From Candidatus Aminicenantota bacterium (GTDB taxonomy: Bacteria > Acidobacteriota > Aminicenantia > Aminicenantales > UBA4085), in contig PLMN01000010.1 in NCBI GenBank assembly GCA_003141555.1, positions 1 to 64,000 of the forward strand: 64,000 nucleotides of DNA, in the 5' to 3' direction. The notes beneath the pieces were generated by a model. It was given only the letters and a program-made list of their open reading frames with translations. It was not told the origin of the DNA and searched no databases. The position numbers were made by a program, and so were the translations under genes. Shown here piece by piece: positions 22,468 through 39,626 of this stretch (its first letter is position 1; each line of letters begins with the position of its first letter).

Positions 22468-22680
22468 AATGATTTCCGGGGCCGATTGAAAACTTGCTTT
22501 TGCCCGGAATCCGAATTAATATTATTCTCAAAAGAGGATTATCCGTGCTTGACGGGGGCGATTTTTGCCGTTCGGGGAAAAGGGCGTTCCTCGCGAGCTC
22601 GTCGCTATCTAATCGCCGAAGGAAGATCTCGCGGTTCGGACTGCCGGATACGGTGGGAAGATGATCATGGGAAAGGGCGC

Positions 22681-25047
22681 ATGAGGCCCCCCAAGAAAAA
22701 AAACGTTCCTCCCGATGCCGTCCCTCCGGCGGCGGGCTCGCCCGGGGCTGCGTCACCTGCGCAAGCAGGTTCTGGAATGCGCAGGCAGGCGGAGGAGATC
22801 GCCCGGACAAAAGACGCCCCGTCCCGGGAAAGCCTCGAGGCGCTGTCGCCCGAAGAAGCGCGGCGGACGCTCCATGAGCTGCGGGTTCACCAGATCGAGC
22901 TGGAGATGCAGAACGAGGAGCTGCGCCGGACGCAGGCGGAGCTGGACACCGCGCGGGCGCGCTATTTCGACTTGGACGACCTGGCCCCGATGGGCTATTG
23001 CACCGTCAATGAGCAAGGGCTGATCCTGGAGGCCAACTTCACGGCCGCGATTTTGTTGGGCGTAGCCCGGGAGGCGCTGGTCAAGCAGCCGTTCTCCCGG
23101 TTCGTCCTCAAAGAGGACCAGAGTGCCTTCTTCCGGCTCTACAAACAGCTCTTTGAGACCGGCGCGCAGGTCTGCGAATTGAGGATGCTCCGTCGGGACG
23201 GCCCTCATTTCAGGGCGCGGATCATGGCGACCGCCGCTCGGGACGCCGCGGGGGCATCCGTGTGCCGCGTCGTGTTGAGCGACATCACCGCCCAAAATAT
23301 TATCCTGGAAGCGTTCCATCGGAAAGGGCAGGAATCGCGGGAGACGAACGGCGATGGGATCCATTTCGACCGTGCCGTCGCGCCCGATCCGCAAAGTCCG
23401 CCGGTCAGGGGTTCCGAAGAGCCCCTCGACATCCTGCTCTTGGAAGACGAACCGCCGCACGCCGAATCCATCAAACGGGCGTTCCTTGATGCCGATCTGA
23501 AGACGGCCATCCGCTGGGTCCAGACTCTGAGGGATTATCACGCCCTCGTGGCCGATCACCCGCCGGATATCGCCATTGTCGATATCGAATTGCCGGACGG
23601 GAATGCGACGAACGTTCTGACCTCGCCGCCTGCGGCCGGCCCCTTCCCCATTCTGATCTTGAGCGGCCACGGCGATGAGCGGATTGCGGTGGAGGCGATG
23701 AAGGCGGGCGCGATCGATTATGTCGAGAAGTCCTCCGGGTCTTTTGCCGACATCCCCCATATCGTCGAGCGTTCCCTTCGCGAGTGGGATCTGCTCCAAG
23801 CCCGCAAACGGGCGGAAGAGACGCTGCGCCGGATGGAAGAGAATTTTCGCTGCTCGCTGGACGATTCGCCGCTCGGCGTGCGGATCATGACCGCGAACGG
23901 CAAGACGCTGTACGCCAACCGGGAGCTGCTGGACTATTATGGCTTCGACCGCTTCGAGGACTTCGACAAAAAATCCCTCCGGGAGCGCTACACGCCCCAG
24001 AGCTATGCCGAGTTCCAAATCCGGAAGCAAGTCCGGGAACGGGGTGAGTTCGGCCCGACGGAATATGAAATCTCCATCGTCCGGACAAACGGCGAGATCC
24101 GCCATCTCCAGGTTTTTCGCAAAGAGGTCTTTTGGAACGGCGAACGACAGTTCCAGGCGCTCTATCGCGACATCACCGAGGAGAAGAAGCGAGGCGAAGC
24201 CCTGAGGCTGTCCGAGGAGACGATCCAGGGCCAAAAGACGCTCTTGGAGCGGCAAAGCATATCCGTGGAAGAACTGATCGGCCGATTGACCCGCTCCCGG
24301 GAAGACCTCGCCGCTTCGTACGCGGCCTTGAAGGCGAACAAAGACGAGCTGGTTCGTTCGGAGAAGCTCGCCTTTACCGGCCGGATGGCGGCCGGCATCG
24401 CCCATGAGATCCGAAATCCCCTGACCAACATCGTTTTATCTCTTCGCCAACTCCAGAAGGCGGGCCGAATAAAGCCGGAGAATCTTCCCTATGCCGAAAT
24501 CATGGAGAGAAATTCCCGGAGGATCGAATATCTGGTCACGGAACTTCTGAACTGCGCCCGTCCGATAAAACTGGACCTTCTGCCTTGGGATATCCATCGG
24601 ATCATCGAAGATGCCCTGAATCTTCTGAACGTCAGGCAAAAAATGCAGAGGATCATCGTGACGAAGAGCCTGACCGATCAGCCCTCGATCCTGCCCGCGG
24701 ACAAGGAATATCTGGGGCGCGTTTTCCTGAACATTCTCAGCAATGCGATCGAGGCCATGCCCCACGGCGGCGCCTTGTCGATCGACACGATTCGAGATGC
24801 GGACTATTTCCGGATCCGGATCCGGGATGAAGGAATCGGCATACCGGAAAAGAACCTGATCCGGATCTTCGATCCTTTCTTCAGCACCAAGAAAGGAGGC
24901 ACGGGTTTGGGATTGTCCACCTGTCAAAATATCGTGACCAGCCATGGGGGCTTGATCGAGGTCGAAAGCGCTTGGAGGAAAGGATCCACCTTCACGGTTT
25001 CCCTACCGCTCGGATTCAAGCCGCTCGATCGCAGCCAAGATCTTTGA
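22681..25047 (+). CDS. Hybrid sensor histidine kinase (PAS-REC-PAS-HisKA-HATPase)
   Basis: A 788-residue soluble kinase with no transmembrane segment, so probably a cytoplasmic sensor. Order: coiled coil ~45-95, PAS ~92-210, receiver ~249-365 with phospho-acceptor Asp301 in IVDIELPDG, PAS ~385-500, a long helix, HisKA with His575 in AHEIRNPL, N box NILSNAIEAM, and ATP lid DEGIG and GTGLGL. An internal receiver upstream of the kinase core is unusual. ATG 22681 follows GGGAAAGG; the frame is open far upstream but that part is antisense to the CCA-enzyme gene. It heads a kinase-receiver-NtrC set directly before the gas vesicle genes and probably controls them. Confidence 0.92.
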   Translation: MRPPKKKNVPPDAVPPAAGSPGAASPAQAGSGMRRQAEEIARTKDAPSRESLEALSPEEARRTLHELRVHQIELEMQNEELRRTQAELDTARARYFDLDDLAPMGYCTVNEQGLILEANFTAAILLGVAREALVKQPFSRFVLKEDQSAFFRLYKQLFETGAQVCELRMLRRDGPHFRARIMATAARDAAGASVCRVVLSDITAQNIILEAFHRKGQESRETNGDGIHFDRAVAPDPQSPPVRGSEEPLDILLLEDEPPHAESIKRAFLDADLKTAIRWVQTLRDYHALVADHPPDIAIVDIELPDGNATNVLTSPPAAGPFPILILSGHGDERIAVEAMKAGAIDYVEKSSGSFADIPHIVERSLREWDLLQARKRAEETLRRMEENFRCSLDDSPLGVRIMTANGKTLYANRELLDYYGFDRFEDFDKKSLRERYTPQSYAEFQIRKQVRERGEFGPTEYEISIVRTNGEIRHLQVFRKEVFWNGERQFQALYRDITEEKKRGEALRLSEETIQGQKTLLERQSISVEELIGRLTRSREDLAASYAALKANKDELVRSEKLAFTGRMAAGIAHEIRNPLTNIVLSLRQLQKAGRIKPENLPYAEIMERNSRRIEYLVTELLNCARPIKLDLLPWDIHRIIEDALNLLNVRQKMQRIIVTKSLTDQPSILPADKEYLGRVFLNILSNAIEAMPHGGALSIDTIRDADYFRIRIRDEGIGIPEKNLIRIFDPFFSTKKGGTGLGLSTCQNIVTSHGGLIEVESAWRKGSTFTVSLPLGFKPLDRSQDL

Positions 25048-25072: not shown

Positions 25073-25729
25073 ATGAAGGCCGACGCGAGGTGGGATATCA
25101 AATTGGGCGGCAGCGTCTATCACCATGTCCCGAACGCCCGCCTGAGGCGCTGGATCAAGACCGGCAAGATCAAAGTCGGCGAAGCGGTCGTCTGCCTCGC
25201 CGATTCGTCCGACTGGCGCAAACTCGAAGACATGGACGACCTTCGGCCTTTAATTAAGCTTCAGGCTACGGCCTCCAAGAAAAGAAAAAGGTCCTTGTCG
25301 GCGGAAAAGGCCGGCCCCGGGCGGAAGCGGATTCAAAGCATTCTGCTCATCGACGACGAGAAGGACTTGTGCGCTCTGTTGGGGAATGCCCTCAGCTCTC
25401 GGGGCTTCCAGATGGAGTACGCCCATACGCGCGGAGAGGCGCTGAAGTGCCTGGCCGGGCGGCGGCCGGACCTTATTTTGTTGGATCTCAGTCTCCCCGA
25501 CGGCGACGGCCTGGCGTTGCTGTCCCATTTACGGAAAACGAGGCCCGCGCCCGCCGTCATCATCACGACCGCCTTCGGCAGCGAAGAAGTCCGGAGCGAA
25601 GCCGAGAAATTGGGCGCCTCGGGCTTTCTGGACAAGCCGTATGATGAAGAGGACGTCATTCGCAAGATACGAAAGATCGGCATTCCGGACGGCCAATGGG
25701 GCCCCCGCGGCGCCGAAACGGGTGGATGA
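25073..25729 (+). CDS. Response regulator receiver with N-terminal GYF-like domain
   Basis: A 218-residue protein. The N-terminal 60 residues (VYHHVPNARLRRWIKTGKIK...WRKLEDMDDL) resemble small GYF_2-like modules seen in bacterial signalling proteins; this is a loose match. A lysine-rich linker leads to a receiver domain from ~88 (SILLIDDEKDL), phospho-acceptor Asp138 in LILLDLSLPDGDG, and the conserved Lys in FLDKPYDEED. No output domain follows. It sits between the hybrid kinase and the NtrC-type regulator and overlaps the latter (ATGA), so it may be a phosphorelay intermediate. Confidence 0.85.
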   Translation: MKADARWDIKLGGSVYHHVPNARLRRWIKTGKIKVGEAVVCLADSSDWRKLEDMDDLRPLIKLQATASKKRKRSLSAEKAGPGRKRIQSILLIDDEKDLCALLGNALSSRGFQMEYAHTRGEALKCLAGRRPDLILLDLSLPDGDGLALLSHLRKTRPAPAVIITTAFGSEEVRSEAEKLGASGFLDKPYDEEDVIRKIRKIGIPDGQWGPRGAETGG

Positions 25730-27096
25730 AAATGGAAACCATTCTCATTGTCGATGATGATCAGGATTTCCGATTCAATCTGTCCACGATTTTGACGGGC
25801 GCGGGATATGAAGTCCGGACCGCGTCCACCGGCCATCAGGCGATCAAGGACGTCGCCCGATGCGCCCCCAGCCTCGCCTTATTGGATTTCCGGCTTCCGG
25901 ATATGGACGGGATCAAAGTCTTTGAAGGGATGCGAAAAATCGATCGGGATCTGATCGCCATCATGGTGACCGGCTATGGCGACGTCAAGGGCGCGGTCTT
26001 GGCCATGAAAATGGGGGTCCATGACTATATCGCCAAGCCCTTTGATGAGGAAGAGCTGATCTTGATCATTCAAAAGGCCTTGGAGACCCGGAGCCTGAGC
26101 CAGGAGGTGGAGAGATTACGGACCCGCCTGGGAGAAAGCCGGGATGTCGAGGATTTCATGGGCAAGAGTCCCCGAATTCAACAGATCCTGAAACAGGTTG
26201 AGATTATCGCCCCGACGAACATGACCGTCGTCCTTCAGGGCGCCAGCGGAACGGGCAAAGAGCTGATCGCCCGGCGGATTCATTACTTGAGCCGGCGTCG
26301 GGATCGGCCTTTCGTAGCCGTCGATTGCGGCGCATTGCCCGAGACGCTGATGGAGAGCGAATTCTTCGGCTATGAAAAGGGCGCGTTCACGGGAGCCGAT
26401 GGCCGAAAAGACGGCCGGTTCGAGCAAGCCCAAGGCGGGACGCTTTTTTTGGATGAAATCGCGAATCTTTCCGAGGCCATCCAGATGAAGCTCCTTCGGG
26501 TTCTCCAGGAACGAAAAGTCCGGCATTTGGGCGGCCAGAAAGAAATCAACGTCGATGTGCGCATTCTCGTGGCCTCCAATTTTCTTCTCTCGGAGCAAGT
26601 CCGCCTGGGACGATTCCGGGAGGACCTCTTTCATCGGCTCAATGAGTTTCAAATCGCGCTGCCTCGATTGACCGAACGGATGGAGGACATTCCCGTTCTG
26701 GCGAAGTACTTCCGGGAGGGGGCGAACCGCGAGTTTCACAAGGACGTCAAGCATTTTTCGCCGGAGGCCATGAAAGGCATCCTGCATTATGCCTGGCCGG
26801 GCAATGTCCGGGAGTTCATGAACATCATCCGCCGCGCGGTCCTGCTGGCGGACTCGGACACGATCGAGCTCGACCAGCTGTTCATGAATCCGATCCCTTC
26901 GACGAGCGGGGCGAATGATGAGACCGCGAAGCCCCTGGACAAGGGCGCGTCTTTCGAGGAGATCACCCGGAATTTTGAGATGGACGTCATTCGGAAGGCC
27001 TTGAAGGAAGCGGGCGGGAAAAAAGCAAAGGCGGCGGAGCTTTTGAAGCTGAATAAAAAAACCCTCTATCGCAAACTCAAAAGCATGAATATATAG
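25726..27096 (+). CDS. NtrC-family sigma-54-dependent response regulator
   Basis: A 456-residue enhancer-binding protein. Receiver 4-118 with phospho-acceptor Asp54 (LLDFRLPDMDG); sigma-54 AAA+ domain ~145-370 with Walker A GASGTGKE at 172-179, the sigma-54-contacting GAFTGA loop at 219-224 and Walker B TLFLDEIA; Fis-type helix-turn-helix at the C terminus (AAELLKLNKKTLYRKLKS). The ATG at 25726 overlaps the previous stop. Two near-perfect -24/-12 promoters lie downstream in the gas vesicle operons and a third before the OMP gene at 43740, so this protein is the obvious candidate activator. Analogous NtrC-like control of gas vesicles is known in Serratia. Confidence 0.95.
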   Translation: MKMETILIVDDDQDFRFNLSTILTGAGYEVRTASTGHQAIKDVARCAPSLALLDFRLPDMDGIKVFEGMRKIDRDLIAIMVTGYGDVKGAVLAMKMGVHDYIAKPFDEEELILIIQKALETRSLSQEVERLRTRLGESRDVEDFMGKSPRIQQILKQVEIIAPTNMTVVLQGASGTGKELIARRIHYLSRRRDRPFVAVDCGALPETLMESEFFGYEKGAFTGADGRKDGRFEQAQGGTLFLDEIANLSEAIQMKLLRVLQERKVRHLGGQKEINVDVRILVASNFLLSEQVRLGRFREDLFHRLNEFQIALPRLTERMEDIPVLAKYFREGANREFHKDVKHFSPEAMKGILHYAWPGNVREFMNIIRRAVLLADSDTIELDQLFMNPIPSTSGANDETAKPLDKGASFEEITRNFEMDVIRKALKEAGGKKAKAAELLKLNKKTLYRKLKSMNI

Positions 27097-27109
27097 ACAA
27101 TTCTGCCCT
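27094..27109 (+). promoter_or_regulatory. Candidate upstream activator site 1 (gvp operon 1)
   Basis: TAGACAATTCTGCCCT. Its reverse complement, AGGGCAGAATTGTCTA, matches the dyad at 30394-30409 (AGGACAGAATTGTCCT) in 13 of 16 positions. A further ATTGTCCC lies at 27125-27132. The site is about 160 nt upstream of the predicted start of transcription, a normal range for a sigma-54 activator. It begins at the last codon of the NtrC gene. Confidence 0.55.
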
Positions 27110-27212
27110 TTTTCTTGTCTCACGATTGTCCCTTTCCAGCTCAATCTGTCCGTCACGACTAAATAGACGGGCAAGATCGGGTCCTATAACGTTTATTCAC
27201 AGCGAGTTACGC

Positions 27213-27229: not shown

Positions 27230-27236
27230 CGCGGGT

Positions 27237-27252
27237 TGGCACCGTTATTGCT
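27237..27252 (+). promoter_or_regulatory. Sigma-54 promoter of gvp operon 1
   Basis: TGGCACCGTTATTGCT carries the invariant GG and GC at the correct 12-nt offset and the TGGCAC/TTGCT consensus. Predicted transcription start near 27262, about 50 nt before the GTG of the first gvp gene. Confidence 0.88.
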
Positions 27253-27312
27253 AATAAGATAAGAGTCCGGGCGGTGGCAAGTGTTTTATGCCGCCGGGAA
27301 AGAGGGTGCCGG

Positions 27313-28128
27313 GTGGAAGGCTTCTATTTGTATTGCGTGAGGAAGAGCGGCGGGCCGTCTGTCGGCTTCGCCACCAAAGGCATCGATGAAAAGGGAGAGG
27401 TCTTCACCCGGACTTTTCAGGGATTGGAGGCCGTCATCAGCCGGGTGCCCTTGGAGGAATTCGATTCCGATATCGTCCGAAACAAGGCCCGAAACGATCT
27501 CTCCTGGATCAAGAACATGGCCGTTCTTCATGAGGCGGTCATCGAAGAAGCGATGAGAGGGCCCGGGGAAATCTTGAGTTTGATCCCCTTGAAATTCGGG
27601 ACGATATTTAAAGACGAGCATGCGCTCGAAGCAACCTTGGCCGAACACTACGAACAATTCCAGGAGACGTTGGATCGGCTGACGGGAAAGCAGGAATGGG
27701 GCGTCAAGGCGTATTTGACGGATCAACAAATGTTCGAGCAGTCGGTCAAGGAGGACAATGCGGCCATCCGGAAAAAGGCGGGAGAAATGGCGGGGCTGCC
27801 GGAGGGCATGGCTTTTCTGATGGAGGAAGAGTTCAACGACTTCGTTTCCCGCGAAGCGAACAAGGCCTTGGATCTTCTGGCCGAGGGCTTGACCGAAAGC
27901 TTAGGCCGGTATGCCGAAGCCGTGGTCCTGAGTCCCAGTTTGGGGAAGGAATTGACGGGCAAGCGCGAGCCCATGGTGTTCAATGCCGCCTGTTTGGTCC
28001 GGAGCGGGACCATCGAAGAATTTCGAGAAGCGGCCCGCCAACTCCTGGGGGAAATCCGGGAAAAAGGACTGGACCTCGAGGTCAGCGGTCCCTGGCCGGC
28101 CTATCATTTCGCGACGCTCGAAAAATAG
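27313..28128 (+). CDS. gvpF: Gas vesicle protein GvpF/GvpL family (GTG start)
   Basis: GvpF/L proteins are minor shell or assembly factors that interact with GvpA. The 271-residue product opens GFYLYCVRKSG, the family start, and has the conserved middle region LHEAVIEEAMRGPGEILSLIPLKFGTIF and C-terminal LEVSGPWPAYHFA. GTG 27313 is preferred because a GAGGG site lies 6 nt before it; a GTG at 27274 is in frame but lies only about 12 nt after the predicted transcription start. It heads operon 1 and is one of four family members in the cluster. Confidence 0.9.
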   Translation: MEGFYLYCVRKSGGPSVGFATKGIDEKGEVFTRTFQGLEAVISRVPLEEFDSDIVRNKARNDLSWIKNMAVLHEAVIEEAMRGPGEILSLIPLKFGTIFKDEHALEATLAEHYEQFQETLDRLTGKQEWGVKAYLTDQQMFEQSVKEDNAAIRKKAGEMAGLPEGMAFLMEEEFNDFVSREANKALDLLAEGLTESLGRYAEAVVLSPSLGKELTGKREPMVFNAACLVRSGTIEEFREAARQLLGEIREKGLDLEVSGPWPAYHFATLEK

Positions 28129-28137
28129 GATACAAGG

Positions 28138-28680
28138 ATGAGTCATTCGACTTCCCGTGATGAGTCCGTCGGGCTGGTTGACGCCTTGGATCGAGTCTTG
28201 GATAAAGGGGCGATCGTCCAGGGCGACATCGTCCTCCAGGTCGCGGACGTCGACCTTGTCTATTTGGGCTTGCGACTGATTTTGACCTCGGTCTCCCGGG
28301 CGGAAGAGCTCTCCGGCAAGAATTTCGGCCATCCGGAACGGGCGTTGACCCCAGAGGACATGGCTTATATCGAGAACCTGCAAAGGGAGATCCGAAGAGC
28401 GGAGGAGAACATCCCCAAGCTCATCGACTTGGGCCATCCCAAAAAGGCCGAGGCGGGGTTGGCCAAATTGGTTTTGACCCTCGTCGAACTGATCCGGAAG
28501 CTCATGGAGAAGGAAGCTTTTCGGAGAGTCAAGAAGGGGACCCTGTCTTCCGGCGAAATCCAAAAGCTGGGATTGAGTCTGAAAGCGGTCAAGAAAAAGA
28601 TTCAAGAAATCCAAACGATTTTCGGTCTCGAGGACGAAGACCTGGACCTGGATTTGGGACCGTTGGGAAATTTGATGTGA
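28138..28680 (+). CDS. gvpK: Fused GvpJ/GvpA-like and GvpK gas vesicle protein
   Basis: A 180-residue protein with two parts. Residues 10-58 (LVDALDRVLDKGAIVQGDIV...VYLGLRLILTSV) match the GvpA/GvpJ shell-protein fold. After a charged linker, residues 105-178 match GvpK: KLVLTLVELIRKLMEKEAFR, GTLSSGEIQKLGLSL, FGLEDEDLDLDLGPLG. GvpK alone usually lacks the first part, and in haloarchaea gvpJ and gvpK are adjacent separate genes, so this looks like their fusion. The reading frame is continuous with no frameshift signs. Lies 9 nt after gvpF. Confidence 0.85.
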   Translation: MSHSTSRDESVGLVDALDRVLDKGAIVQGDIVLQVADVDLVYLGLRLILTSVSRAEELSGKNFGHPERALTPEDMAYIENLQREIRRAEENIPKLIDLGHPKKAEAGLAKLVLTLVELIRKLMEKEAFRRVKKGTLSSGEIQKLGLSLKAVKKKIQEIQTIFGLEDEDLDLDLGPLGNLM

Positions 28681-28702
28681 CGAGAATAAGGAGAGCCATC
28701 CC

Positions 28703-28999
28703 TTGACCCAACAACAAATGATGCATGCCACGAATGCCACGAATCTGGCGGATATCCTTGAGCGGGTCCTGGACAAGGGCGTCGTCATCGCCGGAGACAT
28801 CAAAATTCAGATCGCTGATATCGACCTGCTCACCATCAAGATCCGGCTCTTGGTGGCGTCCGTGGACAAGGCCCTGGAGATGGGGATCAATTGGTGGCAG
28901 ACGGATCCCTATCTTTCCTCCAAAGCTCAAGACGCGGAGAACGCGGACAGAATCAAGAAGCTCGAAGACGAAGTCCACAAATTGAAAAGCGAAGCGTAG
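28703..28999 (+). CDS. gvpJ: Gas vesicle protein GvpJ (GvpA family), TTG start
   Basis: A 98-residue minor shell protein of the GvpA/J/M family. NLADILERVLDKGVVIAGDI and LTIKIRLLVASVDKALEMGI match the amphipathic shell core, and the WWQTDPYLSS extension and acidic/lysine-rich tail are typical of GvpJ rather than GvpA. The TTG at 28703 has an AAGGAGAG site 7 nt upstream; an in-frame ATG at 28718 would shorten it by five residues. Confidence 0.88.
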   Translation: MTQQQMMHATNATNLADILERVLDKGVVIAGDIKIQIADIDLLTIKIRLLVASVDKALEMGINWWQTDPYLSSKAQDAENADRIKKLEDEVHKLKSEA

Positions 29000-29014
29000 C
29001 TCGCCGAGAAACAA

Positions 29015-29704
29015 ATGAGAACTCTTCTTTGCGTTCCGATCATCCACACGAGCGCCGATCTGGGCTCCCTGGCCCCCGAGGTCCATCGAAGAGGCCTTGA
29101 AAATTTCGGCGAAGACACGTGGAGAGATCATTTGGAGACGATCGACGGCTTCTGGGACGCGCTCTCCGCCTACTTCGACTCGATCCCCGTCTCCGGGGCG
29201 AAGATTTTCCAGGACGGCATGATCGCGGATGGGGAATTGGGTTTGAAGATCGTCCAGGAAGTGGAAAAGGCGGGCAGCAAAAATCACCGATTGATTTCCC
29301 GGCTTCTTCAGAAAGGGGCGATCTTGATGAGGACGGAAGATTTCGCCCTGGTCAAGAAAGAGCGGGACCATCTGCTGAAAATCATCCAGGCCAAAACGAC
29401 CGTGCGGAAATTCCTCGCCTTGATCGTCTACAAGCTCAGTAAGAAAAGGCTTTTGAGGCAAAGGGACGCGTCCATCGCCCAAAGGATCGACCAGGCTTTG
29501 GGGGAGGGCGAAACCGGGATCCTCTTCATCGGCGCCTATCACAACATCATGCCGAGGCTTGCCCGGGACATCCGCATCCAAGAAATCAGGGACGTCCGAA
29601 AAATCAGGGAATACCAATCCCTCCTGTCCTCCTATCCGAAGCATCAAAAACGGTTCGCGGGCTTGAGCCGGTATCTTATTTCCAAGGTTGGAGAGGGAGC
29701 ATGA
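29015..29704 (+). CDS. Conserved protein of unknown function in gvp operon 1
   Basis: A 229-residue soluble protein. The start MRTLLCVPIIHTSADLGSLA and a late GILFIGAYHNIMPRLARDI are reminiscent of the His-containing strands of the TraB/PrgY-type fold, but the match is too weak to name. It has no signal peptide or transmembrane segment and is rich in charged helices. Placed between gvpJ and a receiver protein, with ATGA overlap to the latter, it is surely co-expressed with gas vesicle genes. Not a recognised Gvp protein. Confidence 0.75.
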   Translation: MRTLLCVPIIHTSADLGSLAPEVHRRGLENFGEDTWRDHLETIDGFWDALSAYFDSIPVSGAKIFQDGMIADGELGLKIVQEVEKAGSKNHRLISRLLQKGAILMRTEDFALVKKERDHLLKIIQAKTTVRKFLALIVYKLSKKRLLRQRDASIAQRIDQALGEGETGILFIGAYHNIMPRLARDIRIQEIRDVRKIREYQSLLSSYPKHQKRFAGLSRYLISKVGEGA

Positions 29705-30156
29705 GCGAAAGAAATCCCTTCAACATCATGTTGATCGAAGACGACCCGGCGCACACCGAGATCGTGGCGCGCAAGCTCCAGGACTTTCCCGTCGCGAACC
29801 GCTTCTTTCCGGTCAAAGACGGGCGGAAAGCGCTGGACATTCTTTTTCGCAACGGCGCCGGCGCCGATCCCGAAGCCGTCCCCCAGCCGGACTTGATCCT
29901 CCTGGATAAGTGCCTGCCCAAAGTAGACGGCCTGGAAGTGCTGCGGCTGATCAAGAATGATGCGAGCCTCAAGCGGATTCCGGCGGTCATGCTGACGACG
30001 TCCGACGACATGGTGGACATCGAGGCCGCTTACGGCGTGGGCGCCGGCAGCTACCTGATCAAGCCCGCCAATTTCGAGAAATTCGACAAGCTCCTGGACG
30101 CTTTATGTTCTTACTGGCTGACCTGGAACAGAATCTCGGGTCGCAACGGGGGCTGA
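29701..30156 (+). CDS. Single-domain response regulator (Rcp1/CheY-like)
   Basis: A 151-residue receiver with acidic pair in IMLIEDDPAHTEIV, phospho-acceptor Asp in LILLDKCLPKVDG, Thr in VMLTTSDD and Lys in YLIKPANFEKF. The extra loop before the Asp (about 10 residues) is typical of Rcp1-like receivers that work with phytochrome-type or other soluble kinases. Last gene of gvp operon 1; ATGA overlap with the unknown gene. No output domain. Confidence 0.92.
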   Translation: MSERNPFNIMLIEDDPAHTEIVARKLQDFPVANRFFPVKDGRKALDILFRNGAGADPEAVPQPDLILLDKCLPKVDGLEVLRLIKNDASLKRIPAVMLTTSDDMVDIEAAYGVGAGSYLIKPANFEKFDKLLDALCSYWLTWNRISGRNGG

Positions 30157-30161
30157 AAGAC

Positions 30162-30509
30162 TCAGATCCGTTTTTCGATCGTGACCCCGTAACGATAGGC
30201 CTTTAGGATTTCTTGGCAGGTCGCGCCTTTCCGGGCCATGAGGAACGCTCCGGCTTGACACAGCCCGGCGCCGTGCTCCCGGCCCCTCCTCGAAAAAATA
30301 ATATGGGTGATCCGGTAAATGGAATAACGTCCTTCCCGGTCGACGAGATGGATGGACGTTTCCGGAGATGGGACATTATTGGGGTGGCGCCAGAGGACAG
30401 AATTGTCCTCATTCCCGTCCTTCTCCGGCAAAACGTCCCCCGCTGAGGGAGGGCAGAACCAGAACTCCAATTTAATTAACGGGTTAGGGGATAGCTTCAA
30501 CAAGGTCAA
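30162..30509 (-). pseudogene. Remnant of a SpoIID/LytB-domain protein
   Basis: The last 60 residues on the minus strand resemble the C terminus of SpoIID/LytB domains, which usually read roughly G-R-G-x-G-H-G-V-G-L-C-Q-x-G-A then an MA-x-x-G and IL-x-x-YYPG. Here we see GREHGAGLCQAGAFLMARKG and CQEILKAYRYGVTIEK, with the pattern partly eroded. The N-terminal two thirds of a normal SpoIID domain is absent, and the frame upstream (to 30509) runs through the gvpA enhancer region. Most likely a decayed gene end; a short functional protein cannot be excluded. Confidence 0.5.
30394..30409 (+). promoter_or_regulatory. Candidate upstream activator site 2 (gvpA operon)
   Basis: AGGACAGAATTGTCCT has 6-bp arms AGGACA/TGTCCT around GAAT. 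Centred about 138 nt upstream of the predicted gvpA transcription start; the same element recurs before operon 1 and, in part, before the OMP gene. Confidence 0.6.
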
Positions 30510-30513
30510 GGTT

Positions 30514-30529
30514 TGGCATGGATATTGCT
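30514..30529 (+). promoter_or_regulatory. Sigma-54 promoter of the gvpA operon
   Basis: TGGCATGGATATTGCT with GG and GC correctly spaced. Predicted start near 30540. The 30157-30611 interval, the only gene-poor stretch over 300 nt, holds the SpoIID remnant, an activator site, this promoter, a palindrome and the gvpA ribosome-binding site. Confidence 0.88.
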
Positions 30530-30540
30530 ATTAAGGAAAG

Positions 30541-30611: not shown

Positions 30612-30818
30612 ATGGCCGTAGAAAAAGCGATCGGATCTTCCAGCTTGGTTGAGGTTATCGACCGGATCCTGGACAAGGGAGTGGTTGTGGACGCATGGGT
30701 GCGCGTGTCCCTGGTCGGGATCGAGATCCTCGCCGTTGAGGCGAGAGTCGTCATCGCGTCGGTGGAGACGTACCTGAAGTATGCTGAGGCGATCGGTTTG
30801 ACCGCAACCGCCGCGTAA
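30612..30818 (+). CDS. gvpA: Major gas vesicle shell protein GvpA
   Basis: GvpA polymerises into the hollow gas-permeable ribs of the vesicle. The 68-residue product begins [20 protein letters not shown] and continues [20 protein letters not shown] and [20 protein letters not shown], close to the consensus along its whole length. The ribosome-binding site AAAGGAGGTGA (30595-30605) is the strongest in the cluster, fitting very high expression. First gene of operon 2. A long inverted repeat follows it. Confidence 0.98.
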
Positions 30819-30832
30819 GGGTCAAGGACCCG

Positions 30833-30931: not shown

Positions 30932-31663
30932 ATGCCTTCAACCCAACCGATGGAAAATGTCACCGGGAATATGGTCGCGTCCTTTGAGGCGGGCAGCCAG
31001 AGCATTGAATCCCTTTTCGACGCCGCCCACCAAATCCTCGAAGGCTTCCAGAACTCCTTCTTCGATACACGCCAGGAAAGGGAACACATCAACGCCCAGC
31101 TGCGGGAGAATCTCACGGCCAATGAATCCCTCCGCCGAAAAGATTTCGATCTGATGATGCAGGACATTCTTTCCGCCCAGGAAGACAGAGAACGGCATGT
31201 CCGGGAGGAGCTGAACATGTACCTGGCCGATCAGAGGGAGATGATCCGCTCGTTGGGTGAGAACTTGGCGAAGTTCAAGGACGCCCTGGCCGGAGGCGAG
31301 GCCCAAAGGGTCAAGGAATTCCAGACCTTGCTGCAGGGGATCCTGGCTGCCCAGGACGAGCGAAAGAACAAAGTGACCTCGGAGCTGAAGGAATTCCAAA
31401 TCCAACAACAGGAGCTGGCTATAACGCTCAAAGGGCTATTGGCCAAGGGCCGGGAGCTTCGGATCAAGGACCTGAAAAGGATGCTGGGGGAATTCCGGTC
31501 ACAGCGCCAGGAGCGCATCGTCGCGCAGGGAGAACGCCGGAAAGGCGTTCGCGACATGCTGGAGGAAAGCCAAAAAGAACGGTCCGCCGAGGCCAAGAAC
31601 CGGCAGGAGCTGCAAAAAAAGGCGATTCAAGCCAGAACCAGTCCGGACGGACCGGGAAAATAG
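30932..31663 (+). CDS. Coiled-coil repeat protein, possible GvpC-like shell or assembly factor
   Basis: A 243-residue, almost wholly alpha-helical, Gln/Glu/Arg/Lys-rich protein. A motif of the form R-x-K-D/E-F/L-x-x-L/M-L/M recurs at about 68, 126 and 177 (RRKDFDLMMQDILSAQ, RVKEFQTLLQGILAAQ, RIKDLKRMLGEFRSQ), so the protein is built of three ~50-58-residue units. It follows gvpA directly, where gvpC lies in cyanobacteria. It is not a confident GvpC; the next gene fits that better. The start is uncertain: ATG 30932 or ATG 30950. Confidence 0.7.
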   Translation: MPSTQPMENVTGNMVASFEAGSQSIESLFDAAHQILEGFQNSFFDTRQEREHINAQLRENLTANESLRRKDFDLMMQDILSAQEDRERHVREELNMYLADQREMIRSLGENLAKFKDALAGGEAQRVKEFQTLLQGILAAQDERKNKVTSELKEFQIQQQELAITLKGLLAKGRELRIKDLKRMLGEFRSQRQERIVAQGERRKGVRDMLEESQKERSAEAKNRQELQKKAIQARTSPDGPGK

Positions 31664-31704
31664 ATGCATCAAAAATGCGAATTCAAAAACCAAGGAGAGA
31701 CAAT

Positions 31705-32439
31705 ATGGGAATGGTCGAAGATTTTGGAATACTCACGAACGATATCGTGAAGTCGTATAATGTCCGGATCATGGGCTTGGGGGCGATCGCCGACGGGACG
31801 CGCGCCTTGGCCAAGAATACCCAGGGCATGCTCAAGCGGTTCCACGCCGAGCATCAGGACATGTCCGCCCGCCAGGCTAAGGCCTTGGGCGGATTCATGA
31901 GCGACCTGAAAAAGAGCGTGGACGGCATGCTCAAGCGATTCCGGACTAAGCATCAGGACATGTCCGCCGAGCAAGCCAAGGCGCTGGCCGGCTTCATGTC
32001 CGGCTTGACGGCAAACCTGGGCAAGCTGATGAAGAAATTCCAGAAAGAACACCAGATCATGACCGCCGGGCTTGACGTCAGCGCCGTGGCGCTCAAGAAG
32101 AGCCTGGCGAAAAGCACCCGGGACCTCGAGACGTCCGTTAAAAGCTGGCTCCAGGAATTTTCCGACGCCCATGCGGAGATGAGCGAAGGGCTGAAGAGCG
32201 ATCTGGCCAAATACGTGGCGGATCTCGTGAAGGGGACCCAGGGGCTGTTGGGGGAGTTTCTCAACAACCGGGAGAATATGGCGGCTCAGTGGCGGGCTAT
32301 GGCCTCGACGCTGGCTCATAAGCGGGGCGCGGCGGCGGTCGACGTGGCGGGCGCTGAGACCGTGAAGACCGTGAAACAAGCCATCAGAAAACCCGTGGTC
32401 CGAAAAGCCGGGACAAAGGGCAAAGGGAAAAAGTCCTAA
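31705..32439 (+). CDS. gvpC: Candidate GvpC: five 33-residue helical repeats
   Basis: A 244-residue protein. From residue 41 it consists of repeats of exactly 33 residues: 41-73, 74-106, 107-139 (then a 7-residue insertion), 147-179 and ~180-210. Repeats 1 and 2 are nearly identical, each starting GMLKRF and containing HQDMSA and QAKAL. Residues 8-40 may be a degenerate sixth unit. GvpC of cyanobacteria has 33-residue helical repeats and binds the outside of the GvpA shell to strengthen it; period, composition and position after gvpA fit. The tail is lysine-rich. ATG 31705 has an AAGGAGAG site upstream. Confidence 0.75.
   Translation: MGMVEDFGILTNDIVKSYNVRIMGLGAIADGTRALAKNTQGMLKRFHAEHQDMSARQAKALGGFMSDLKKSVDGMLKRFRTKHQDMSAEQAKALAGFMSGLTANLGKLMKKFQKEHQIMTAGLDVSAVALKKSLAKSTRDLETSVKSWLQEFSDAHAEMSEGLKSDLAKYVADLVKGTQGLLGEFLNNRENMAAQWRAMASTLAHKRGAAAVDVAGAETVKTVKQAIRKPVVRKAGTKGKGKKS
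31825..32334 (+). repeat. 99-bp tandem repeats inside the gvpC candidate
   Basis: Units at 31825-31923, 31924-32022, 32023-32121, 32143-32241 and 32242-~32334. The first two are similar at DNA level, the rest mainly at protein level, which suggests an old internal duplication with one recent copy. Confidence 0.8.
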
Positions 32440-32473: not shown

Positions 32474-32716
32474 ATGGATGTCCGATCGATCCCCTGTGCC
32501 TTCTGCAAGGGCGAGGGGGTCTATTCCCACACCCAGATCACCTGCACGGTTTGTCACGGCCAGGGCCGGGTGTCGGTCGAAGGACCGACCGTCGAGTGTC
32601 CGCAATGCCGGGGCACGGGCATGGAAGCGAAAAGCCGCCTGCCTTGTCTGGGATGCGGAGGCTTCGGCGTTCTGCCCCTGAAACAAGAAAAGGGAAGGCT
32701 GCCTCGAATTTCCTGA
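32474..32716 (+). CDS. Stand-alone DnaJ-type zinc-finger protein
   Basis: An 80-residue protein made almost only of four CxxCxGxG motifs: CAFCKGEG (8), CTVCHGQG (24), CPQCRGTG (42) and CLGCGGFG (58), the pattern of the DnaJ central domain that binds two zinc ions and helps hold unfolded substrates. No J domain or substrate-binding domain is attached. A J-like domain occurs on the GvpL protein encoded at 37034 in the same operon, so the two could act together. Confidence 0.85.
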   Translation: MDVRSIPCAFCKGEGVYSHTQITCTVCHGQGRVSVEGPTVECPQCRGTGMEAKSRLPCLGCGGFGVLPLKQEKGRLPRIS

Positions 32717-32736: not shown

Positions 32737-33732
32737 ATGAGCGATGAGATGACGACGGTCCTGCAGCCGAGTCCGTTGCCGGACTTCGTGGAAACGCAGT
32801 ATATCAAGGATATCACCGGGCGGGCGCTATGCTATGTTCAGGCCGGCTTCCCGGTGCATTTCCGGGGCGTCTCCGGCACGGGCAAGACGACGCTCGCCCT
32901 GCATCTCGCGAGCAAAATCAACAGGCCGGTGGTCATGCTTCACGGCGACGATGAATTCACCACGTCCGATCTGGTCGGCGGCGAATACGGCTATCGGATC
33001 CGGAAGATCGTGGACCGGTTCGTCTCCCGCGTGACCAAGATGGAAGAGGATATGGTGAAGCGCTGGGTCGACAATCGCCTGACGGTGGCCTGCAAGCATG
33101 GGTTCACTCTGATCTATGACGAGTTCACCCGTTCGCGGCCCGAAGCAAACAACATCCTTCTCTCCATCCTGCAGGAGAAGATGATGGATCTGCCGGCGGG
33201 CCGGGGCGGAGACGAGCCGTACCTGAAAGTCCACCCGAATTTCACGGCCATCTTCACGTCGAACCCCGAGGAATATGCCGGAGTCCATCGGAGTCAGGAC
33301 GCTTTGAGGGACCGGATGATCACGCTCGACGTGGACCACTTCGATTATGAGACGGAGGTGGCCATCACCCAGGCCAAGTCCAAGCTTCCGACGGCTCAGG
33401 TCAAGCTCATCGTCAACATCGTCCGGGGGCTCCGGGACTCCGGGAAGTCGGAGTTCGAGCCCACGGTCCGGGGCTGCATCATGATCGCCAAAACCCTGAA
33501 AGTCCAGGGCCTGGCGCCTTCTCCCTCCGAATCCTTCTCGAGGATGTGCCAGGACATCCTGGCCTCGGAGACGAGCCGGGTCGGCTCGAAGACAAACCAG
33601 GCTCGGGTCAAGGACATCGTCAAGGAGATCGTGCAAAGCGAGATGGGCCAGGCTTCCCGGGCCAAGAGCGGGAAGATGGACGGGCCTCCCAAGACGGCCG
33701 CGGCCGTCCCACCGAAAGCGGCCGTCATGTAG
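32737..33732 (+). CDS. gvpN: Gas vesicle AAA+ ATPase GvpN
   Basis: GvpN is a MoxR-related AAA+ ATPase needed for vesicles to grow beyond small bicones. The 331-residue product has Walker A GVSGTGKTTLALHLA at about residue 45, the family stretch LHGDDEFTTSDLVGGEYGY, Walker B FTLIYDEFTRSRPEANN, and a sensor-1 region FTAIFTSNPEEYAG. A long alanine/proline-rich tail is extra. ATG 32737 follows AAGAGAGGA. Confidence 0.96.
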   Translation: MSDEMTTVLQPSPLPDFVETQYIKDITGRALCYVQAGFPVHFRGVSGTGKTTLALHLASKINRPVVMLHGDDEFTTSDLVGGEYGYRIRKIVDRFVSRVTKMEEDMVKRWVDNRLTVACKHGFTLIYDEFTRSRPEANNILLSILQEKMMDLPAGRGGDEPYLKVHPNFTAIFTSNPEEYAGVHRSQDALRDRMITLDVDHFDYETEVAITQAKSKLPTAQVKLIVNIVRGLRDSGKSEFEPTVRGCIMIAKTLKVQGLAPSPSESFSRMCQDILASETSRVGSKTNQARVKDIVKEIVQSEMGQASRAKSGKMDGPPKTAAAVPPKAAVM

Positions 33733-34322: not shown

Positions 34323-34856
34323 ATGGGCGAAGAAAAAAAGAAGAGAGATAAAGAGAAGGTGAACGTCGATTTCGGATTGGGAACGCTGGGCCTGGGAGGG
34401 CTATTCCAGGGCATCGAAAAATTGGTGGACTTGGCCGCGGACCTGAATGAGAAAGGCGGCGCCATCCATAAAGAAGGGGAGATCGACCTCGGCCATCTGA
34501 AGGAAGGCATGAAGGGGGTGTTCGGCTTTTCCATCAAGAGCGCCATCGGCGGAAAACCGATCGTGGAATCCTTCGGCAACATCAAGAAAACGCCTCAGGG
34601 GCCCAAGATTGAAGAGGAACGGGAACCGATCACCGACGTTTTCGATGAGAAGGGAGAAGTCGTGGTGATGGCCGAGATGCCGGGCATTCGGGACGAGGGG
34701 ATTTCCGTCGATTTGAAGGGAGATATCCTGGCCATCAAGGGAACGAACAAACACCGGAATTATTATAAGGAAGTCCTCCTCCCCGCCAAGGTCAAGCCGG
34801 GGACCCTGACCTCGAATTACAAGAACGGCGTGTTGGAAGTCAGGATCAAGAAATGA
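34323..34856 (+). CDS. gvpH: Hsp20-like gas vesicle protein GvpH
   Basis: A 177-residue protein. The N-terminal half ([20 protein letters not shown]) resembles the Gvp-specific part of GvpH; the C-terminal half is an alpha-crystallin/Hsp20 domain: [40 protein letters not shown] and [10 protein letters not shown]. GvpH is a small heat-shock-like accessory protein in gas vesicle clusters. AGGAG site before the ATG. Confidence 0.88.
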
Positions 34857-34878
34857 CGCTCTCAGGCGGATGGCCCTC

Positions 34879-37041
34879 ATGAGTCCCAAGAAGGACGACA
34901 TCACCCTCACCCTGAAAGTGCAGGAAGCGCTCTCGAAGGATGTGGGCCGGGCGATCGCCCGGATCGATCCGGAAGACATCAAGGCTCTCGGATTGGCGGT
35001 GGGCGATATCATCGAAATCGACGGGAAGAGGAAGGCCCCGGCCAAGATCATGCCCTGCTATGCCGAAGAGAGGGGCAAGAAGATCGTCCAGATCGACGGC
35101 CTGTTGCGGGAAAACGCCCAGATCGGGCTGGACGAGAAGGTCCGGATTCGCGGCATTTCTTCGCAACCCGCCGGGAAAATCGTCCTCTCGCCCCTCACCC
35201 TGTCCGGCCTTCCGCAGAAGGACAGCGACACGAAATATATCGGGTCGCTGATGGAAGGGCTTCCGGTGACGACCGGGGACCGCATTCGAGCGACGCTCTT
35301 TGGATCCCGATCATGCGATTTCAAGGTCGTCGATACGACCCCCGGGGGCGTGGTGTCGATCAGCGCCGCAACGTCCATCCGCATGGAGACCGGCAAAAAG
35401 GGAGAGGCCAAGGCGGCCCGGATTTCCTATGAGGACATCGGCGGACTCGGCCAGCAGATCCAGAGAATCCGGGAGATGATCGAGCTCCCGTTGAAATACC
35501 CCCAGGTGTTCGAACGCCTGGGGATCGATGCCCCCAAGGGCGTCTTCCTCTATGGGCCTCCGGGCACGGGCAAAACCCTGATCGCACGGGCGGTGGCCAA
35601 CGAGACGGACGCGTACTTCACCCACATCTCGGGCCCCGAGATCATGGGCAAGTTTTACGGCGAAAGCGAAGGCCGCCTGCGAAGCCTCTTCGAGGACGCG
35701 CAAGCCCACGCCCCGGCCATCATTTTCATCGACGAAATCGACGCGATCGCGCCCAAGAGGGAGGAGATGGGCGGGGAGAAGCAGGTGGAGAGGCGCGTGG
35801 TGGCCCAGCTCCTGTCCCTCCTCGACGGCTTGGAGTCGCGCGGCCAGATCATCGTCATCGGCGCGACGAACATTCCCAACACCATCGATCCCGCGCTGAG
35901 ACGGCCCGGTCGGTTCGACCGGGAAATCTCGATTCCCATCCCCGACAAAAACGGGAGATTGGAAATTCTCGGCATCCACACCCGGGGGATGCCCCTCGCG
36001 GGCGACATCCGCCTCGAAAAGCTGGCCGAGATCACACACGGATTCGTCGGAGCGGATCTCGAGGCCCTGGCCCGGGAGGCCGCGATGTCGGCCCTGCGCA
36101 AGGTCCTGCCCCAGATCGATTTTGAAATGGCCGAAATCCCCTATGAAATCATGACGAATTTGGAAGTCGTCATGGACAACTTCCTGGAAGCGATGAAGGA
36201 AGTCGAGCCTTCGGCCATCCGCGAAGTCTTCGTCGAGGTTCCGGACGTCAAGTGGAGCGACGTCGGCGGCTTGGGAAGCATCAAGGAGGAGCTGAAAGAA
36301 GCGGTGGAGTGGCCGCTCAAATATTCCGAGATCTTCAAAAAGGCCGGCACGAATCCCCCCAAGGGGATGCTTCTCTACGGCATTCCGGGAACGGGCAAGA
36401 CGCTCCTGGCCAAGGCCGTCGCCACGGAAAGCGGAGTCAATTTCATCTCCGTCAAAGGCCCGGCCCTGATCTCCAAATTCGTAGGGGAAAGCGAAAAGGC
36501 GATCCGCGAGGTCTTCAAGACGGCCAAGCAGGCTTCGCCCACGATCCTGTTCTTTGACGAGATCGACAGCCTGGTCCCCCGACGAGGCTCGAGCTCCACG
36601 GACGCCCATGTCACGGAGCGGGTGATCAGCCAATTCTTGACCGAGATGGACGGGATCGAGGAGCTCAAAGGCGTGATCGTCCTGGCCGCGACCAATCGAA
36701 TGGACCTGATCGACCCGGCGCTCCTGCGGAGCGGCCGGTTCGACCTCCTGCTGGAGTTGCCCAAGCCGGACGTCCAGGCCCGGGAGGAGATCTGGAAGAT
36801 CCACACCCGGAACAAGCCGCTGGACAAGGATGTGGATCCCCGGCAAATGGCCGAAGACAGCGACGGCCAGGTCGGGGCCGATATCGAATTCGTCTGCCGC
36901 AAGGCGTCGATGCTCGCGATCCGGGAATATATCGAGAATCAGAAATCCAAGACCAAGGCCTCCAAGGCGGACCTCCGAATCTCGAAAAGGCATTTCCAGG
37001 AGGCCTTGAAAATCATGGCTCGGAGGAAGTCCCATGGCTGA
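34879..37041 (+). CDS. CDC48/VAT-type double AAA+ ATPase in gvp operon
   Basis: A 720-residue protein with the CDC48 N domain ([20 protein letters not shown], double-psi barrel) at 1-~180, a first AAA domain with Walker [16 protein letters not shown] and Walker [16 protein letters not shown], and a second with [15 protein letters not shown] and [15 protein letters not shown]; arginine fingers lie in [10 protein letters not shown] and [10 protein letters not shown]. Hexamers of this family unfold or remodel protein complexes; full-length CDC48 homologues are common in archaea and less so in bacteria. The start may be ATG 34870. It overlaps gvpL by 8 nt, so a role in vesicle assembly or turnover is likely. 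Confidence 0.93.
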
Positions 37042-38089
37042 GAGCGGGAAATACATTTACGGGATCATCAATTCCAATACCCGTGTCCAGCTGACGATCC
37101 CGAAGTCGTTGCTGCCCGAGGCGAACGATGAGCCGGCGGCCGCGTACACGATTCCCCATCAGGACCTGGCGGCCCTGGTCCGGGATTGCGCCGACGCCGG
37201 CCCCCTCCCCCGGACCCAAGAGACGCTGGCCCGGCTGCTCGTCGGCCATCAGGCGGTGATCGAAAAAATCATGGCCCAAGGGACGACCGTCATTCCCATG
37301 AAATTGGGCACCTATGCCCGCGATGAAAGCGAGGTCAAGGCGATTCTGGATAAGGGATATCCCCTGCTCAAAGAGATCATGACCAAGATCGTGGACAAGA
37401 TCGAAATCGACGTCGTCGCGACGTGGAGCCATTTCAACTCCCGGGTCAAAGACGCGGGCGAAGACAAGGAGATCAGGGAATTCAAGGAAAAGCTCCTGAG
37501 CCAGCCCGGCGGACCGACCGTGAATGACCAGATGAAGATCGGGCTCATGATCAAGAAGGCCCTGGATGAAAAGCGGGCCGGCGTGACCCGGGACATTCTG
37601 GATCGCCTTCAAGCCATCAGCGAGGAGGTGCGGATTCACGACCTGATGGATGACCGGATGGTGATGAACGCCGCTTTTTTGATCGCCCGGGTCAGGCATC
37701 AGGACTTCGAGGCCAAGGTCGAAGAGCTCAACCGGACCTCGCGGGAGGAGCTCGATTTCCGGTGCGTCGGCCCGCTTCCTCTCTACAGCTACTATACCCT
37801 CGAGGCTAAAAAACTGCGCTATGAGGAAATCGAGCGGGCCCGGAGGATGCTCGGACTTCTCCAGGAGACAGCCACCCGGGGCGAGATCAAAAACGCGCAT
37901 CGGGCCCTGGCGTTTTCCTCCCATCCCGACACCCGGTCCGACGCTCCCCCCTTCGAAGGGAAATTTGATGAGATCACCCGGGCCTATCACCTCTTGTCGG
38001 AATATTGCCGGACGGAGAGCTGTTCGTTCAAGGAGGCTGAATTCCCCCAGAATGCCCTGGTGATCAAAGTCCTCGGCTCTCCGTCCTGA
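37034..38089 (+). CDS. gvpL: GvpL/GvpF gas vesicle protein fused to a J-like domain
   Basis: A 351-residue protein. Residues 5-260 are a GvpF/L domain: [11 protein letters not shown] at the start, [18 protein letters not shown], and a C-terminal [16 protein letters not shown]. Residues ~270-330 then read like a J domain: two helices around [17 protein letters not shown], with the HPD tripeptide at 297-299, followed by [14 protein letters not shown] domains stimulate Hsp70; if functional it would recruit DnaK to the vesicle assembly site. Strong GGAGG site before the ATG. Confidence 0.82.
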
Positions 38090-38104
38090 AGCATCAGGAT
38101 CCCC

Positions 38105-38875
38105 ATGTCCCAAGACGGCTATTATATCTACGGCATCATCCGTTCAGCCCAGGATCGATATTTCGGCCCGATCGGCATCGGCCCCCGGGGCGACGAGGTC
38201 CGGACGATCGGGGCGGACAATTTGAGCATGGTGGTCAGCCACCATCCCCTGGCCAAATTCGCGGTCAGCCGGGAGAATCTGATCGCCCACGAACGGGTGA
38301 TCGAAGAGGTGATGAAGGAGTTCGACAGCGTGCTGCCCGTCCGGTTCGGGACGATCGCTTCGAGCGCCGATGAAGTTCGGAATCTCCTGGAGCGAAGATC
38401 CGGAGAGTTCAAGAATCTCCTGAACGCCGTGGACCATAAGATCGAATTGGGCGTGAAGGCGATCTGGAAGGACCTGAAGACGATTTACCGGGAAATTGCC
38501 GTCGAAGACAAGGACATCAAGCGGGCCCAGGAAGAGCTCAGGAACGCCAAGGGGAAAAGGAATTTCGGGGTCCAGCTCGAAATAGGCAAGCTCGTCGAAG
38601 ACGCCCTGGCGAGGAAAAAGGAAAAAGAACGAGACGGCGTGGCCCAGACCCTCCGAAAGATCGCCTTCGACTGCAAGCTGACGAAGACGTCCGGCGAGGC
38701 GATGTTCATGAACGCCTCCTTCCTGGTCAATAAAGGCCGGGAAAAGGAATTCGACAACCTCATGGAGGATCTGACCGATCTCCATCGCGGCCGGATCCAG
38801 TTTCTCTATGCCGGGCCCTTGCCGGTCTTCAATTTCGTCAACGTCGAGATCCATCCCGAGGAGTGGGAAAAGTGA
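38105..38875 (+). CDS. gvpF: Gas vesicle protein GvpF/GvpL family
   Basis: A 256-residue family member: YYIYGIIRSAQDRYFGPIGI, then HERVIEEVMKEFDSVLPVRF, FNEPLM-type helix region (FDNLMEDLTDLH) and GRIQFLYAGPLPVFNFVNVE at the end. Closely related to the next gene, so tandem duplication is likely. The stop overlaps the GTG start of that gene. Confidence 0.93.
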   Translation: MSQDGYYIYGIIRSAQDRYFGPIGIGPRGDEVRTIGADNLSMVVSHHPLAKFAVSRENLIAHERVIEEVMKEFDSVLPVRFGTIASSADEVRNLLERRSGEFKNLLNAVDHKIELGVKAIWKDLKTIYREIAVEDKDIKRAQEELRNAKGKRNFGVQLEIGKLVEDALARKKEKERDGVAQTLRKIAFDCKLTKTSGEAMFMNASFLVNKGREKEFDNLMEDLTDLHRGRIQFLYAGPLPVFNFVNVEIHPEEWEK

Positions 38876-39624
38876 CCGGCCAATACATCTACTGCATCAT
38901 CGGATCCGGCCGGCCGGAGTCGTTCGGCCCTTGGGGGATCGGCGCCCAGGGCGAGGAGCTGACCACGGTCTGCCGTCAGGATATCGCCGCGGTCGTGAGC
39001 CGTTCCCCGATGATCAAATACGCCCTCTCCCGGGACAACATGATCGCCCATGAAAAAGCCATCGAGGAGGTCATGAAGCGCCACGACGTTCTGCCGGTCC
39101 GGTTCTCCACGATCGCGGAGGATGAGGGGAAAATCGGCCGGATCCTGGAGAAAGAACACGACCGTTTCGCGGAGCTGTTGAAGACGATGACCGGGAAAAC
39201 GGAGCTGAGCGTCATCGCCATCTTCAAGGAAGACGTCGTCTACAAGGACATCGCCGAGAACTATCGGGACATCCGCGCCTTCAAGGAAAAAATCGCCGGA
39301 CTTCCACCCGAGAAGGCCCGCGGACCGCTGATGGAAATCGGGCGGAGGGTGGAAGCCGCCCTGGGCCGGGAAAGGGAGATTTACAAGGACGAGATCCTGA
39401 AGGCGTTGACGGCCTTGTCCTGCGACGTGAAGGTCAACGACAACTATGGGGAGCTGATGATCCTCAAGGCCGCTTTTTTGGTCGAGCGGCGCCGGGAAGC
39501 GGAATTCGACCGGGCGGTGAATGACTTGGCCGAGAAATACGCGGGCAAAATCCGGTTCAAATACGTCGGGACGCTGCCGCCGTTCAATTTCGTGAACCTG
39601 GCGATCGATACGGGGAATTACTGA
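38872..39624 (+). CDS. gvpF: Gas vesicle protein GvpF/GvpL family, GTG start
   Basis: A 250-residue paralogue of the preceding protein: GQYIYCIIGSGRPESFGPWG, HEKAIEEVMKRHDVLPVRFS and KIRFKYVGTLPPFNFVNLAI. GTG 38872 overlaps the previous stop and has GAGGAG 7 nt upstream, so it is preferred over GTG 38863. GvpF/L proteins in other species bind GvpA and may keep it soluble or nucleate shells. Confidence 0.93.
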   Translation: MTGQYIYCIIGSGRPESFGPWGIGAQGEELTTVCRQDIAAVVSRSPMIKYALSRDNMIAHEKAIEEVMKRHDVLPVRFSTIAEDEGKIGRILEKEHDRFAELLKTMTGKTELSVIAIFKEDVVYKDIAENYRDIRAFKEKIAGLPPEKARGPLMEIGRRVEAALGREREIYKDEILKALTALSCDVKVNDNYGELMILKAAFLVERRREAEFDRAVNDLAEKYAGKIRFKYVGTLPPFNFVNLAIDTGNY

Positions 39625-39626
39625 CG

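Follow-up and report, generated by a model that had tools for sequence, protein, structure and literature searches.

Sigma-54 promoters of two gas vesicle operons in a Candidatus Aminicenantota bacterium, and their probable control by a neighbouring NtrC-type activator

We examined a stretch of 64,000 nt from a Candidatus Aminicenantota bacterium (assembly GCA_003141555.1, contig PLMN01000010.1, positions 1 to 64,000; hereafter the window) that carries a gas vesicle cluster with sigma-54 promoters ahead of gvpF and gvpA. The genes by which we recognise such a cluster, gvpA, gvpN, gvpF/L, gvpG and gvpK, are all present, and a kinase gene, a response regulator gene and an NtrC-type activator gene lie upstream. 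The features are listed below with the evidence for each.

22675..25047 (+): sensor histidine kinase with PAS, receiver, HisKA and HATPase domains and H-box AHEIRNPLT (Pfam, open reading frame; start codon uncertain)
25073..25729 (+): stand-alone response regulator RR1 (Pfam Response_reg; same order in relatives)
25735..27096 (+): NtrC-type activator with receiver, GAFTGA-bearing sigma-54 domain and Fis-type helix-turn-helix, NKKTLYRKLKSM (domains, motif, gas-vesicle-linked clade)
27096..27132 (-): candidate enhancer for the gvpF promoter, at -167..-131 relative to the predicted start (pattern scans; conserved block in relative G022)
27237..27252 (+): sigma-54 promoter ahead of the gvpF operon, transcription start predicted at 27263 (strict pattern; kept in G022 as TGGCACTGTTTTTGCT)
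27313..28128 (+): gvpF/L-type gene (Pfam PF06386)
28138..28680 (+): GvpA-like domain fused to GvpK (Pfam PF00741 and PF05121)
28703..28999 (+): GvpJ/GvpA-like gene (profile matches)
29015..29704 (+): gene of no recognised Pfam or NCBIfam family that recurs in gas vesicle clusters
29701..30156 (+): single-domain response regulator (Pfam)
30370..30407 (+): candidate enhancer for the gvpA promoter, at -170..-133 relative to the predicted start (pattern scans)
30514..30529 (+): sigma-54 promoter ahead of the gvpA operon, transcription start predicted at 30540 (strict pattern)
30612..30818 (+): gvpA, 68 aa (Pfam PF00741)
30932..32439 (+): pair of coiled-coil-like genes, also found behind gvpA at other loci (recurrence)
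32474..32716 (+): CxxCxGxG zinc-ribbon gene
32737..33732 (+): gvpN (TIGR02640, above cut-off)
34323..39869 (+): remaining cluster, with Hsp20/GvpH, a CDC48-type ATPase, three gvpL/F and gvpG

The two -24/-12 sites, TGGCACCGTTATTGCT at 27237-27252 ahead of gvpF and TGGCATGGATATTGCT at 30514-30529 ahead of gvpA, both lie on the + strand and have the form TGGCAC-N5-TTGC with a GG-to-GC spacing of 10 nt. An earlier note on this DNA had described these 16-mers, with their invariant GG and GC at the correct spacing, as standing just before gvpF and gvpA with an NtrC-type gene directly upstream. Each of these points holds: the genes start at 27313 and 30612, and 140 nt separate the end of the NtrC-type gene (25735-27096) from the first site. 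The observation of two sigma-54 promoters is confirmed. The strict pattern TGGCAYNNNNNTTGCW matched three times in the window against 0.03 expected, and none of 100 shuffles reached three matches, whereas a loose consensus (2 mismatches) matched 27 times against 39.8 expected and was not enriched. Because the loose scan stays at chance level, only the strict sites are informative, and the loose scan was dropped as evidence in favour of the strict pattern.

With C27251 and C30528 set as -12, transcription is predicted to start at 27263 for the gvpF operon and 30540 for the gvpA operon; the first position had previously been put at 27262, and the second is unchanged. The gvpF start codon is GTG at 27313, preceded by the ribosome-binding sequence GAAAGAGGG, and that of gvpA is ATG at 30612, preceded by AAAGGAGGTG and located 84 nt past the -12 of its site.

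The genome encodes one RpoN (a single Sigma54_DBD match), in which the RpoN box ARRTVAKYR is present. Across the 3.79 Mb genome, the strict pattern occurs at 25 places compared with 3 for a reversed control. All but one of the 25 lie outside genes and upstream of a same-strand gene, as positioned by a simple purpose-made gene caller that missed gvpA; the exception (L028) is inside an open frame. Judging by position, the strict sites of this genome appear to be real promoters. Most of them (L005-L029) precede genes whose products look exported in our judgement, namely pilin-like, receptor-like and signal-peptide proteins. The third strict site of the window, TGGCATGGTTCTTGCA at 44545-44560 (-), is directly ahead of a gene (43740-44534, -) that resembles an outer membrane beta-barrel protein.

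Activators of the NtrC, AtoC and ZraR type combine a receiver domain, an AAA+ domain with a GAFTGA motif and a Fis-type helix-turn-helix, and act from a distant paired enhancer. The protein encoded at 25735-27096 has the same layout, with Pfam matches to the receiver, sigma-54 interaction and Fis-type DNA-binding domains and with both GAFTGA and a Walker A motif. No named NCBIfam family is above its cut-off among the best 25 matches shown; the model for NR(I)/NtrC proper (TIGR01818) gives 399 bits, below its curated cut-off of 558.6. The gene order of kinase, stand-alone regulator and NtrC is also seen in relatives. Taken with RpoN, the genome-wide enrichment of sites, the conservation in G022 and the return of this layout in other phyla, both described below, these domains support the sigma-54 control of both gvp operons that the earlier note had predicted from the sequence.

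A pair of the form GGGACA-N17/18-RGGRCAGAATTGTC was spotted by eye in both intergenic regions, in opposite orientations. In the whole genome this composite pattern has only two occurrences, at -167..-131 and -170..-133 relative to the predicted starts of the gvpF and gvpA operons, a count that is partly circular since the pattern was derived from these two sites. A pattern built solely on the two window sites was also run over 1,424,442 bases of other fetched loci, partly redundant and with 10 loci overlapping the window sites excluded. It matched 18 of 20 letters at no more than two distinct sites, given by three rows, and the next best match had 17. The genome G105 (Omnitrophota) accounts for both: it has two gas vesicle clusters, and in each one the site follows the NtrC gene directly. 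The encoded NtrC proteins, 62% and 58% identical to that of the window, are the two best found outside the window's own genome. In G022, which belongs to the same order but to another family, kinase, regulator, NtrC (84% identical), TGGCACTGTTTTTGCT and gvpF stand in line. Identical columns in the G022 alignment number 32/41 in the enhancer pair, 32/70 in the middle, 20/26 in the promoter and 26/57 in the leader. The paired upstream element is likely the docking site of the neighbouring activator at both promoters, a candidate assignment made from sequence comparison.

Two other elements were considered and rejected. The inverted repeat AATTCCGGAGCGGAATT just before the first promoter, a possible operator, is not kept in G022, and the simple dyad GGRCANNNNTGTCC is not specific, having 22 strand matches in the genome. 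The proposed gvpA enhancer sits within an open reading frame (30162-30509, -) that resembles the remnant of a gene; over its final 47 residues it matches the C-terminus of SpoIID/LytB, with a score far under the cut-off.

In a tree of 59 NtrC-type proteins, the 29 labels marking linkage to gas vesicle genes need 2 changes compared with 9.9 in shuffles; the rows were picked by similarity to the window's protein, so that the tree shows clustering and not exclusivity. One clade of 16 (support 100/100) comprises Bacteroidota, Ignavibacteriota and a spirochaete. A second clade of 20 rows (support 100/99) includes the window's protein, with 13 rows labelled and 7 unlabelled. Among the latter, L135, L139 and L152 proved to be linked to gvpA once more flank was read, the contigs of L138 and L142 end before gvpA could appear, the 16 kb read at L137 contain no gvpA, and L154 stands as unlabelled on its original flank. 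The window genome's own NtrC paralogs fall outside both clades.

An NtrC match of 1e-118 or better was found in 5 of 99 relatives: the window's own genome, G022, G039, G098 and G030. Matches to gvpA reach at least 90% in the own genome and G098, and G022 has a weak gvpA-like match. No gvpA match was found in G039 or G030; the G039 regulator lies at the edge of its contig and is followed by a sigma-54 site. The G022 cluster (L188, L189) looks decayed, with gvpF in two pieces, the GvpJ-like gene broken across two reading frames and, in place of gvpA to gvpN, a gene resembling an ATPase. In G030, a CxxCxGxG protein follows one of the two regulators (L191, L192).

To place the window among other gas vesicle clusters, we used the best 80 of 475 confirmed gvpA candidates, 76 of which have at least 100 nt upstream. 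A site scoring at least 19 was present within 1,500 nt on the right strand at 23 of 61 non-cyanobacterial loci, compared with 2 on the other strand, 2 for the reversed and 1 for the complement pattern. The 15 cyanobacterial loci had none on the right strand and 1 on the other. When sites scoring at least 16.5 were counted at 50-199 nt upstream of 65 non-cyanobacterial loci, 30 were on the right strand versus 2 on the other. At several loci other genes stand between promoter and gvpA, and some loci begin at contig ends. Of 48 gvpA-bearing genomes checked for RpoN, which are a chosen part of the 80 loci, 41 have a match.

Collectively, the strict sites, RpoN, the complete activator and the paired element at about -170 to -131 of both promoters lead us to conclude that very probably sigma-54 polymerase transcribes the two gas vesicle operons and the NtrC-type activator encoded beside them turns them on. 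The histidine kinase (22675-25047) would pass a signal, perhaps via the stand-alone regulator, to the activator, which would bind the paired sites at both promoters and then oligomerise. After DNA looping, it would contact the closed sigma-54 complex through GAFTGA and open it by ATP hydrolysis. One signal could in this way start the assembly factors of the gvpF operon and the shell protein of the gvpA operon together. Low oxygen as the input would be a guess, by analogy with Serratia.

Several results weigh against this conclusion. A 14-mer match between the two window regions was reached by 67 of 300 shuffles and a 20-mer match by 35 of 200, and a general tandem-dyad score fails at both regions (200/200 and 83/200 shuffles). 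With that score, L092 reaches 0/200 through simple repeats, and at L044, L045 and L047 the top-scoring pairs differ from the choice by eye. Because these window-only comparisons are not above shuffles, the enhancer case rests on the scan across loci, the count over the whole genome and the G022 comparison. Association between site and NtrC is absent among 58 non-cyanobacterial loci with at least 200 nt upstream: a site scoring at least 19 within 400 nt of gvpA occurs in 9 of 27 loci with an upstream NtrC versus 8 of 31 (p = 0.57). G030 has two regulators of the gas vesicle type with enhancer and sigma-54 site and has no gvpA match. G110 (locus L050) has site and enhancer yet no RpoN match, perhaps owing to a partial assembly.

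Other explanations of the two promoters were weighed against the same evidence. Only the gvpF promoter might matter, with gvpA transcribed by read-through from the first operon and the site at 30514 secondary. The genes all run in one direction, and none of the 8 terminator-like sites (6.0 ± 2.5 in shuffles) falls between 30156 and 30612; gvpA may therefore be reached by read-through. However, the 30514 site is closer to consensus than the first (21.8 vs 20.3 by the weights used). It has a proposed enhancer of its own, placed at an equal distance, as well as a separate leader with a ribosome site, and sites just before gvpA are common in other loci; these points make this explanation unlikely. 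It is less probable still that the promoters are sigma-54 dependent but that another activator drives one or both, the adjacent NtrC serving otherwise. The genome does hold 14 Sigma54_activat matches, one of them weak, and an unlinked activator may be the rule in Chlorobiota, where TGGCACACTATATGC-type sites occur with no NtrC gene within the fetched flank. Against this stand the position of the window's NtrC within the gas-vesicle-linked clade, apart from its own paralogs, and the enhancer, which is directly behind the NtrC gene and recurs with NtrC orthologs.

We give very little credence to the proposal that the sites are relics or chance and that another sigma factor drives the operons. 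One relative's cluster does look decayed, but the strict-pattern statistics, the conservation in G022 and the lack of a sigma-70-like site of the scanned kind in 27000-31000 argue otherwise. Among the Chlorobiota gvpA loci, L054, L056, L057, L070, L075 and L104 have TGGCACAnnATnTGC-type sites about 90 nt upstream in common.

Alongside control by the neighbouring activator, the comparison relates its recognition helix to the enhancer. A K-type helix (window NKKTLYRKLKSM, L045 HRKALYRKMKSL, L177 NRKALYRKMKSL) pairs with GGGACA/GTCCC. An S-type helix, DR[MT]TLYSKI, pairs with GTAGRAA..TYCTAC in L046 and less clearly in others, and a Y-type helix, DYKTLxxKIK, pairs with TATGGAAN4TTCCATA. This last motif, taken from L039, gave 13 matches of 13-14 of 14 letters in 1.53 Mb, which reduce to 7 distinct sites at 5 loci, each of them located upstream of a gvpA sigma-54 site; in this set the helix of L094 is masked and the regulator of L093 was not found on its stretch. 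The two G030 regulators, which were read once this motif had been defined, carry a DYKTLYNKIKEY helix, and their elements are close to TATGGAAN4TTCCATA. Methylosinus, which has a helix of the DYKT kind, showed no TATGGAA element in the short stretch examined before gvpA. We lean towards the view that gas vesicle genes of many phyla carry their own mobile switch (kinase, regulator, NtrC-type activator, paired enhancer and -24/-12 promoter), in which helix and enhancer have diversified in step, giving three or more classes and a readable protein-DNA code.

In Serratia sp. ATCC 39006, gvpA has already been shown to be under sigma-54 control. The published work describes a sigma-54 consensus upstream of the mapped gvpA1 start, dependence of gvpA1 on the NtrC-like GvrA encoded in the gas vesicle cluster, and an rpoN insertion that abolishes gas vesicles and lowers gvpA1 transcription (PMC4982088, PMC11778176). 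The window resembles this system, with GvrA compared by its description there, in having a sigma-54 site before gvpA and an NtrC-family gene in the cluster. In Serratia, the regulators lie in a second operon under a sigma-70-type promoter (PMC4982088), whereas the window has a kinase-regulator-NtrC set upstream and sigma-54 sites at both operons.

Of 43 plasmid records with a match, we read five proteobacterial plasmid loci, two of which combine an annotated sigma-54 regulator with a site-like stretch near gvpA. On the plasmids of Methylosinus sp. C49 and Methylocella tundrae, a sigma-54 dependent regulator, GvpF, a kinase/PAS protein, a response regulator and gvpA stand in line, with site-like sequences 89 and 96 nt before gvpA, one of them weaker. 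They differ from the window in that the regulators are about 42% identical and the kinase lies behind gvpF. The Spartinivicinus, Thiodictyon and Octadecabacter loci have no sigma-54 regulator in the stretch read, and only Thiodictyon among them has a site-like sequence, at -207.

As far as we found, sigma-54 control of gas vesicles was previously shown in one enterobacterium, and open-access titles and abstract openings yielded no cross-phylum account of it. New here are a specific candidate enhancer and the wide comparative frame. The same logic is predicted for the window's lineage, with starts, enhancers and activator named, and by comparison for many phyla. Gas vesicle regulation becomes testable beyond cyanobacteria, haloarchaea and Serratia, and the locus offers a candidate promoter-activator pair for gas vesicle expression under one signal.

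A response-regulator-like gene often lies between the sigma-54 site and gvpA (L044, L045, L046, L092, L177, L178 and L181), which suggests feedback on the phosphorelay. The two coiled-coil-like proteins of the window (30932-32439) match no Pfam family above cut-off, occur behind gvpA in many phyla too, and are possible shell-strengthening proteins.

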